A DNA stretch of 40,244 nt from an archaeon (GTDB lineage: Archaea; Thermoproteota; Nitrososphaeria; Nitrososphaerales; CADDZS01), in contig CADDZS010000004.1 in the NCBI GenBank assembly GCA_902812485.1, positions 1 through 40,244 of the forward strand. The letters are read 5' to 3'. A program made the position numbers and the translations under genes. Below are positions 23,324-32,281 of the stretch, in pieces. How positions within the stretch are numbered: the stretch's first letter is position 1; the number at the start of each line of letters is the position of its first letter. Under the pieces are notes generated by a model. That model did no database searches and was not told the origin of the DNA. It saw nothing but the letters and a program-made list of their open reading frames with translations.

Positions 23324-23953
23324 TCAGCCAGCAACCTGAGGCGGAATGAAGGGTGCAGCTTCTTCACGGAGGCCATCCTTTGTAGCGTAAATCAAATCAA
23401 CGCCGTCGCCGCTAGATACGTCCCTCTTTATTGCGGCCTTGATGGCCTTGAGGGCAAGTTCTTTTGCTTCCTTTTCGGACATGCCCTCAGAATAACCATT
23501 TTCAATGACACCAATCGCGATTTCCGCACCAGAGCCAACTGCCGCGTAGTCATCTGGAATAACACTTCCTAGAGGATCAAGGACGTAGATCGAAGGTTTC
23601 TTGACATCATCGTAGCCGCCAAGCATTACTTGGGTAATCATTGGGGCGAATCGCCTTTCAAACATTATTACCGAGAGGAGCTTTGCAATCGAATTGGCGC
23701 TTAGAGGCCTCTTTATCTCAAGTTCTCTGAGTTTTACATAGGATTGAAGCTCCTTGATGAGAATTTGCATGTCTCCAATCATCCCAGCGCAAGCGGCGCC
23801 GACTCTGTCAGTAACACGAAATGTCTTCTTTCCTGTCTTGCTTACGACGAAACCTCCCAATGTGACTCTTCGCTCTGCTCCGAGCACGACTCCGCCGTCG
23901 AATGTCAAGCCTACAACAGTTGCGCCTGGAATGAATGCTTCGTTGAATGCCAT
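23324..23953 (-). CDS. psmB: Proteasome beta subunit, catalytically inactive form
   Basis: 20S proteasome beta-type subunit (Ntn fold), 209 residues from the ATG at 23953. Ungapped comparison by eye with the other beta subunit in this window shows the nucleophile Thr1 replaced by Ala (IPG-ATVVG, residue 11) and Asp17 by Glu (LGAERRVT), while Lys33 (GKKTF) and later active-site neighbours (GSG; RDVSSGDG) remain. Without Thr1 it cannot autoprocess or cleave peptides, so it should be a structural or regulatory beta subunit in mixed rings. An upstream TTG-type extension to 24040 is open but overlaps rtcA and lacks family character. It lies 45 bases downstream of rtcA, same strand. Confidence 0.92.
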   Translation of the reverse strand: MAFNEAFIPGATVVGLTFDGGVVLGAERRVTLGGFVVSKTGKKTFRVTDRVGAACAGMIGDMQILIKELQSYVKLRELEIKRPLSANSIAKLLSVIMFERRFAPMITQVMLGGYDDVKKPSIYVLDPLGSVIPDDYAAVGSGAEIAIGVIENGYSEGMSEKEAKELALKAIKAAIKRDVSSGDGVDLIYATKDGLREEAAPFIPPQVAG

Positions 23954-29618: not shown

Positions 29619-30365
29619 TTGTCTAAATTGTCAAGCGATTTCAAAAGTATGATTGGAAGAAGAATGGAATCCAAGCCGTATAATAGCGAAATGGACCTAA
29701 GGGATAGGGTCAACGCAATGAAGTATCACGGCACGACCACTGTGGCACTTTCCTGTCCAGACGGTGTGGTTCTCTGCACTGATACGCGTGTTACCGCGGG
29801 CTATCTTTTCATAGCCCATAGACGTGGGAAGAAAATGTACAAGATAGACAATCATGTGGGCGTGACCATAGCTGGAACAGTGGCGGATGCGCAGAATGTG
29901 ACTGACACTCTCAAATATTACGCAAATATTTACAGACTCGAAAATATGGAACGAATCCCGATCAAATCACTTGCTCGTATCGCCGCAAATATTTTCTTTT
30001 CACAGCGGCTATATCCCTTTATTGCGGACTTTCTGATAGGCGGGGTCGACGAGAAGGAAGGCCCTTCGATATATAGTGTTGATTTTTTCGGCGCCCTAAC
30101 GAAGGAAGACATGGTTTCAACTGGTAGCGGTTCTCCAGTCGCGTATGGAATTCTTGAAGACGAATATACAAAGGGCATGAAGGTTGAGGAGGCTATTCCA
30201 GTCGCGATAAGGGCAGTTAACGCGGCGATAAAGAGGAACGCAGGAACTGGAGATGGTTTCGATGTAGCTATAATTACAAAGGAGAGCGGCTATAGAGAGC
30301 TTTCATCTGAAGAAAAGAACAAACTTCTTGCCTCCGCCCTCGCAGGCAGTAATAGTAGAAATTAA
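29619..30365 (+). CDS. psmB: Proteasome beta subunit, catalytic form
   Basis: 248-residue 20S proteasome beta subunit with a 38-residue propeptide. The processing site is HG-TTTVA: Thr39 becomes Thr1; Asp17 equals D55 (CTDTRVT) and Lys33 equals K71 (RRGKKMYKI), and the GSG serine (about 170) is present. The residue that is usually Asp166 appears as Asn (KRNAGTGDG, N207), and the Ser169 position as Thr. It should supply the proteolytic sites for rings also containing the inactive subunit at 23324. TTG start with alternatives ATG 29649, 29664 and 29691 that only shorten the propeptide. Three bases before aCPSF1, so probably one operon. Confidence 0.95.
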   Translation: MSKLSSDFKSMIGRRMESKPYNSEMDLRDRVNAMKYHGTTTVALSCPDGVVLCTDTRVTAGYLFIAHRRGKKMYKIDNHVGVTIAGTVADAQNVTDTLKYYANIYRLENMERIPIKSLARIAANIFFSQRLYPFIADFLIGGVDEKEGPSIYSVDFFGALTKEDMVSTGSGSPVAYGILEDEYTKGMKVEEAIPVAIRAVNAAIKRNAGTGDGFDVAIITKESGYRELSSEEKNKLLASALAGSNSRN

Positions 30366-30367
30366 CG

Positions 30368-32281
30368 TTGACCGAACGTCAAAACGCACAAAGCGTAACA
30401 AGCACTATTCTGAATCATATTCCAGCCGAAGCTGAGATAACTAGGGTAGAGTATGAAGGGCCGAGGATTGCCCTTTACTCAAAGAACCCCAAGTTCCTTC
30501 AGCAGAATCGCTACATCGTGTCTGATGTAGTTAACATGGTCAAGCGGAGGGTTGTGGTCAGAACTGACAAGTCGATCCGCAAAGACGAGCAGGATGCTCA
30601 AGAGATGATAATGCAAAGTGTCCCCCCCGAGGCAGGAGTTGACAACATTTTCTTCGACGCAGCATTAGGAGAGGCTGTGATCGAAGCACTGAGGCCACTC
30701 CAGCTTTCCCCCGAAAAGGGGTTTAATGCTATTGAGCTTACTGACAAGACGGGATGGAAGCTTCGAATCAGGAAGAAGCCTCACATCCCATGCCAAAGCA
30801 TCCAGAATGTGTATTACACACTCAAGCAAAGCGTTTCCGAGAGGAGCAAATTCTTCAGAGAGGTTGGAGAGAATATCTTTCGGCCGAGGCTCAGTTCTGA
30901 GGCGGAAGTTAGCCTGCTTACACTCGGAGCCTTCGAAGAAGTTGGAAGATCTTCGATAATCGTTCAGACTTCTGAAAGCAAGCTCCTGCTTGATTGCGGG
31001 ATACATCCTGGCGCAAAGAATACTTGGAACGCCTACCCAAGGCTAGATTGGGCAGACTTTGAGCTAGACGAGCTTGACGCGGTTATAATAAGCCACGCTC
31101 ATCTCGATCACACGGGTTTCCTTCCAGCGCTGTACAAGTATGGATATGACGGACCGGTTTATTGCACTGAGCCAACTCTTCCTCTCATGACACTGCTTCA
31201 GGGAGACATGGTGAAACTCGGGCAGACTCAAGGAGCGAGGATGGTCTACGATCAACGCGACATAAGGGAAGTCATAAAACATGCGATCACGGTTCCTTAC
31301 GGCTTGGTCACCGATGTCGCGCCTGATGTGAAGCTTGTTTTCAACAATGCTGGACACATACTCGGATCTGCAACCGTGCATCTTCACGTTGGCGAGGGTG
31401 CTCACAACATTGTATACACCGGCGATTACAAGTATGGAAAGACGAGACTTCTCGACCCAGCTTTTTGGAATTACAAGAGGGTCGAATCGCTGATAACAGA
31501 GTGCACCTACGGTGCAAAGGAGGACATAATGCCTCCACGAGAGGAGGTCGAGAGCAACTTCGTGAAACTCGTAAACGAAACACTCCAGAAGGGAGGAAAG
31601 GTGCTAATCCCAGTGCCCGCAGTTGGCAGAGCCCAAGAGATCATGCTTGTCATTGACCAGTATATGAAGCAGAAGAAGATGATCCAAGCTCCAGTCTTCA
31701 TAGAAGGAATGATCTCTGAGGCTACGGCGATTCATGTGGCCTACCCAGATTACCTCTCAAAAGAGCTCAAATTCAGAATACTCGAGGAAGATGCGAATCC
31801 CTTCGCTTCAGAGTACTTCACTGTAGTGGAGCATCCAAGCAACAGGGAAGAAGCCCTTCGGGAGGGAGGTGCCATAATTATGGCGACTTCAGGAATGCTA
31901 GAAGGTGGTCCTGTGATCGAATACTTTTCCGAACTTGCCGGAGATGAGAAAAACAGAGTTCTCTTTGTTTCGTACCAAGTCCAAGGCACTCTTGGAAGGA
32001 GAGTGCTCGATGGCTCAAATCAAGTGAGCCTCTTGGGAGAAAACGGCAAAATCAGAATCATAGACATGAGGTGTAGTGTTAATCGAATCGAGGGTTTCTC
32101 AGGACACAGCGATTACAACCAAATCGTACGATTCATCCAAAAAATGCGCCCCAAACTTCAGCAGATATTTGTGAATCACGGAGAAAAGCGAAAGTGTGAA
32201 ACTCTAGCTTCCTCACTTGCAAGGATGTTCAAACTTCCGGTTTATCACCCACGGGTTGAAGAAGCGATTAAGATTCGCTAG
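30368..32281 (+). CDS. aCPSF1: KH/beta-CASP ribonuclease (transcription termination factor)
   Basis: 637-residue archaeal CPSF73-like ribonuclease; in methanogens and Thermococcus, aCPSF1 (also called FttA) cleaves nascent RNA and promotes termination at T-runs. Domains: two N-terminal KH-like domains (about 1-150), metallo-beta-lactamase with SHAHLDHTGFLP (about 238-249) and GHILGSATVHLHVGEG, TGDYKYG, beta-CASP insert, and C-terminal GFSGHSDY and VNHGEK histidine motifs. All zinc ligands appear intact. TTG start right after psmB. A second, KH-less family member is encoded at 5051-6160. Confidence 0.97.
   Translation: MTERQNAQSVTSTILNHIPAEAEITRVEYEGPRIALYSKNPKFLQQNRYIVSDVVNMVKRRVVVRTDKSIRKDEQDAQEMIMQSVPPEAGVDNIFFDAALGEAVIEALRPLQLSPEKGFNAIELTDKTGWKLRIRKKPHIPCQSIQNVYYTLKQSVSERSKFFREVGENIFRPRLSSEAEVSLLTLGAFEEVGRSSIIVQTSESKLLLDCGIHPGAKNTWNAYPRLDWADFELDELDAVIISHAHLDHTGFLPALYKYGYDGPVYCTEPTLPLMTLLQGDMVKLGQTQGARMVYDQRDIREVIKHAITVPYGLVTDVAPDVKLVFNNAGHILGSATVHLHVGEGAHNIVYTGDYKYGKTRLLDPAFWNYKRVESLITECTYGAKEDIMPPREEVESNFVKLVNETLQKGGKVLIPVPAVGRAQEIMLVIDQYMKQKKMIQAPVFIEGMISEATAIHVAYPDYLSKELKFRILEEDANPFASEYFTVVEHPSNREEALREGGAIIMATSGMLEGGPVIEYFSELAGDEKNRVLFVSYQVQGTLGRRVLDGSNQVSLLGENGKIRIIDMRCSVNRIEGFSGHSDYNQIVRFIQKMRPKLQQIFVNHGEKRKCETLASSLARMFKLPVYHPRVEEAIKIR

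Follow-up and report, generated by a model that had tools for sequence, protein, structure and literature searches.

The proteasome rings of T. acidophilum, A. fulgidus, and M. jannaschii contain one type of beta subunit. The catalytic triad is composed of Thr1, Lys33, and Asp/Glu17 (Huber et al., 2016, PMC4792962). In Sulfolobus, two beta subunits, Saci0662 and Saci0909, were described as carrying "equivalent threonine residues" (Anjum et al., 2015, PMC4569737). The alpha subunit and a truncated Saci0662 formed a 28-mer without activity, and Saci0909 alone failed to bind alpha, whereas alpha, Saci0662, and Saci0909 together gave an active particle in which Saci0909 was the minor beta, at a ratio below that of Saci0662 (PMC4569737). 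Saci0662 was thereby shown to be inert as a catalyst and to bind the alpha rings. The structure 6z46 is the S. acidocaldarius particle of Saci0613 and Saci0662. Our literature search for an inactive beta subunit in archaea returned nothing specific.

The window analysed here is a stretch of 40,244 nucleotides from an archaeal genome of 2.36 Mb, which was 94% complete and divided into 211 contigs. MAGs of the JOPF series, which belong to Nitrososphaerales, were the closest named relatives of this genome. The order was assigned from named loci and also includes Nitrosopumilaceae-like genomes. The genome contained exactly three PF00227 genes, two of which encode beta subunits (P0001 and P0002) and one an alpha subunit on contig C18. 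An earlier note had described P0001 as a beta subunit lacking both Thr1 and Asp17. The features of P0001, with residue numbers anchored by alignment on the T. acidophilum beta sequence, were as follows.

23324..23953, minus strand: Thr1-less (putatively non-catalytic) proteasome beta subunit P0001, 209 aa (PF00227, 173.6 bits; TIGR03634; AF2; Foldseek)
First 10 residues of P0001: N-terminal extension MAFNEAFIPG, preceding position 1
23921..23923, minus strand: Ala at catalytic position 1, codon GCA (sequence; alignment to T. acidophilum beta)
23918..23920, minus strand: Thr at position 2, codon ACT (invariant in the Thr1-less and catalytic clades)
23873..23875, minus strand: Glu at position 17 (residue 27), as normal there as Asp
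23825..23827, minus strand: Lys33 (residue 43), kept (alignment; orthologue survey)
23420..23422, minus strand: Asp166 (residue 178), kept (alignment; orthologue survey)

The start codon of P0001 was the ATG at 23953 on the minus strand, and family relatives begin with the identical MAFNEA. P0001 scored 216 bits with the archaeal beta equivalog model TIGR03634 and 78 bits with the archaeal alpha model, which places it among the beta-type subunits; the curated cut-off of 224 bits was reached neither by P0001 (216.4 bits) nor by its catalytic partner P0002 (215.7 bits), to which P0001 was 37% identical. The AF2 model of P0001 had a pLDDT of 85 and was matched by Foldseek to 6z46 at 1.8 A with a TMt of 0.92. 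P0001 was therefore beta-type in fold and in sequence, as a structural beta of the Saci0662 type should be. Alpha subunits are likewise without a working N-terminal nucleophile, and P0001 could on that ground be taken for one of them. However, besides the profile scores, P0001 contained no alpha-type N-terminal helix, fell within the beta tree, and occurred in a genome with a separate alpha gene, so that an alpha-type identity can practically be dismissed. The neighbours of the gene, RtcA and a HesB-like gene, were adjacent to it in near relatives only, and a neighbourhood common to the phylum was rejected.

The anchored alignment of P0001 contained Gly0, Ala1, Thr2, Glu17, Lys33, Gly47, Ser129, Asp166, and Ser169. 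The alanine at the Thr1 position and the retention of Lys33, both pointed out in the earlier note, were borne out by the alignment to the T. acidophilum beta, in which the GCA codon at 23923-23921 occupies position 1. The supposed loss of Asp17 was not: the active T. acidophilum beta itself carries Glu17, 60 of 68 orthologues contained it, and the triad allows either Asp or Glu (PMC4792962). This second lesion had been read from a comparison with a single Asp17 sequence, and it was rejected. As judged from the alignment, Thr1 is the sole active-site residue lost in P0001; of the features of a catalytic proteasome beta (Ntn threonine peptidase), the nucleophile was absent while Asp/Glu17 and Lys33 were present. 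The prediction of a dead beta subunit in a two-beta genome thus stood insofar as no N-terminal-threonine protease is possible, with one active-site residue lost instead of two.

A relative was found in all 151 genomes searched across the phylum. Residues were read from fetched loci in a phylum-wide sample of 68 distinct Thr1-less orthologues. Position 1 was occupied by Ala in 63, Gly in four, and Ser in one of them, and by Thr in none; position 17 contained Glu in 60, Asp in seven, and Val in one; Lys33, Gly47, and Asp166 were each invariant (68/68). In a separate collection, Gly-Ala-Thr was found at positions 0 to 2 in 80 of 80 named loci, and the same motif was present in five family members 77-82% identical to P0001. 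A maximum-likelihood tree was built with residue 1 and the propeptide excluded and was rooted on three euryarchaeal sequences. The Thr1-less betas, including P0001 and the Sulfolobaceae member L064, formed one clade with a support of 100/99, and the catalytic beta group was supported by 86/83. In a larger FastTree tree, parsimony needed one change of the Thr1 state. These sequences show that Thr1 was lost once, anciently, and that its absence is the normal state of this subunit across the phylum. Alignment and phylogeny, which the earlier note had proposed as checks, thus agreed on the absence of Thr1 and on a single clade.

Genomes without a clear Thr1-less orthologue were, among the cases examined, incomplete assemblies; in G142, which was 99% complete, the gene was broken across two contig ends. 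A true absence of the subunit from some genomes was therefore rejected. In the Sulfolobaceae orthologues L310, L313-L316, L319, L320, L322, L323, and L329, Ser was present at position 1, accompanied in most by Val17; L314, L319, and L329 kept Glu17, and a weak Ser nucleophile is conceivable in these three.

The draft genome to which the window belongs is fragmented (211 contigs), and a pseudogene, a sequencing error, or a misassembly might have masked Thr1. The open reading frame was intact, the related loci without Thr1 (68/68 and 80/80) and the five family members carried the same state, and the gene was found to evolve under purifying selection within the family (dN 0.14-0.18, far under a saturated dS). 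These results refute such an artefact, which hardly deserves any weight. The earlier note had named a conserved Thr1, an alpha-type subunit, and a misassembly as findings that would overturn its reading, and none of them held.

P0001 might instead be active through Thr2, if an N-terminus one residue further inward exposed the Thr of Gly-Ala-Thr as the nucleophile. Thr2 was invariant in the 68 Thr1-less orthologues, and the "equivalent" threonine reported for Saci0662 (PMC4569737) can only be Thr2: a protein of genome G081 that is 100% identical to 6z46 chain H (Saci0662) reads LEELPATAIG, which puts Ala1 in register with P0001, and we infer that the threonine in question is at position 2. However, Thr2 was equally invariant in 120 of 120 catalytic betas, so its conservation has another cause, and Saci0662 truncated at that Thr assembled without activity (PMC4569737). 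The inactive Saci0613/Saci0662 particle disfavours Thr2 as the nucleophile, and we consider this route very improbable. Exposure of Thr2 instead of Thr1 by the truncation would explain the lack of activity.

P0001, the orthologue of Saci0662, is in our view very probably a structural, non-catalytic beta of a heteromeric archaeal 20S proteasome. Its fold type is that of a normal beta subunit. By analogy with the Sulfolobus work, it would share the inner ring of seven subunits with P0002, which bears Thr1, touch the alpha ring, and be without activity, so limiting how many subunits of each ring can cut. An even alternation of two subunits is impossible in a seven-membered ring. Since P0001 has no Thr1 hydroxyl, it could not cut its own N-terminal extension, and MAFNEAFIPG would stay on unless trimmed by another subunit; yeast T1A subunits retain propeptide remnants (PMC4792962), and the same may be expected here. 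At first sight, the invariant Lys33, Gly47, and Asp166 suggest a working pocket and speak against a structural role. The alpha subunit of the genome (L002), however, also keeps Glu17, Lys33, and Gly47, so the retention of such residues can be structural, and the kept Lys33 and Asp166 were not accepted as a decisive sign of activity.

Alpha and P0001 could also form a separate, fully inactive 20S particle besides those of P0002, which might serve as a reserve or compete for the regulatory ATPase. Such a barrel is complete in vitro for alpha and Saci0662 (PMC4569737) and was solved as 6z46, but it arose from over-expression without the partner, and one mixed particle was obtained when both Sulfolobus betas were expressed (PMC4569737). 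We regard a separate particle as unlikely, and a mixed beta ring as likely in the window organism. The proposal that this organism is a clear case of its own for mixed rings does not hold, as the orthologue is phylum-wide, of single origin, and already characterised in S. acidocaldarius. Since Thr1 was lost once, long ago, and its absence has persisted across the phylum with the rest of the pocket intact, these archaea would have inherited the mixed beta ring, which would then not be peculiar to Sulfolobus.

The Thr1-bearing paralogue of the same genome (29619-30365) and its surroundings contained the following features.

29619..30365, plus strand: catalytic proteasome beta P0002, 248 aa, with Thr1 at residue 39 and Asp17, Lys33, and Ser129 kept (PF00227, 186.6 bits)
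30237..30239, plus strand: Asn at position 166 of P0002 (residue 207), with Thr at 169 (alignment)
30368..32281, plus strand: aCPSF1/FttA-type beta-CASP nuclease (PF17214, PF10996)

The Thr1-bearing partner was constant, and Thr1, Asp17, Lys33, and Ser129 were present in 120 of 120 sampled catalytic betas. The aCPSF1/FttA-type nuclease directly follows the catalytic beta, and the two genes were neighbours at all 29 loci examined across the phylum. In seven of eight family relatives (loci L147, L148, and L150-L160), an additional beta and an additional alpha-type subunit, each of archaeal type, were found in tandem; the pair was not present in the window genome. The additional beta begins Met-Thr-Thr-Ile-Val-Gly with every catalytic residue present, and the pair is possibly a second complete 20S proteasome. 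Matches to a third beta were also found in other Nitrososphaerales.

P0002 contained Asn166 and Thr169 where Asp166 and Ser169 are usual, which may be more surprising than the loss of Thr1. Among the catalytic betas sampled from Nitrososphaerales, ammonia oxidisers among them, 55 of 58 contained Asn166, against four of 55 outside the order. Asn166 is carried, among other named cases, by Nitrosopumilus, Nitrososphaera, Nitrosocosmicus, Nitrosocaldus, Nitrosothermus, and Nitrosopolaris; Asp166 was kept in Bathyarchaeum and a Methylarchaceae genome. Beyond the 55 Nitrososphaerales, a change at 166/169 like that of P0002 was seen in a few others (L079, L081, L178, and L189). The catalytic betas of Nitrososphaerales formed a clade supported by 100/99 in the maximum-likelihood tree, with an Asp166 family nested inside. 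In the yeast beta5-D166N mutant, the propeptide was still removed and about 60% of activity was lost (Huber et al., 2016, PMC4792962); from this result, Asn166 in P0002 would be expected to be tolerated, though with some effect if nothing compensates for it. Tentatively, and with somewhat more doubt than confidence, the proteasome of Nitrososphaerales, with that of the ammonia oxidisers, may combine a Thr1-less beta with an Asn166 catalytic beta in a lineage-wide retuning, partly compensated by Thr169 or other residues, that turns down both the number and the chemistry of the sites relative to every characterised 20S. A search of the open literature on Asp166 in ammonia oxidisers gave nothing specific, and the change may already be described. 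With Asn166, their catalytic beta naturally carries a substitution that is damaging in yeast and that lends itself to a direct test.

Compared with known systems, P0001 was closest to Saci0662, and 6z46 chain H was its best PDB sequence match. Both belong to the same clade, contain Ala1, Glu17, Lys33, and Asp166, and occur in a two-beta genome layout; they are 44% identical and superpose at 1.8 A across about 185 residues. The extension of P0001 has 10 residues and a Pro-Gly end, whereas Saci0662 has EELP directly before Ala1. Saci0662 was studied as a protein and characterised biochemically, whereas P0001, an ordinary member for its phylum, is described here from sequence and model. The catalytic archaeal betas of T. 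acidophilum (1pma), A. fulgidus (1j2q), and M. jannaschii (3h4p) share the fold and the other active-site residues of P0001 but, unlike it, contain Thr1. The best eukaryotic sequence matches of P0001 were the catalytic beta5, followed by beta6/PSMB1, and no specific kinship to the eukaryotic inactive betas was seen in these sequence matches. Eukaryotic beta3, beta4, beta6, and beta7 nevertheless resemble P0001 in that they lack a working Thr1 and sit in a mixed ring, as P0001 probably does. The two-component rings of these archaea would be natural material with which to study why active sites are diluted in eukaryotes too.
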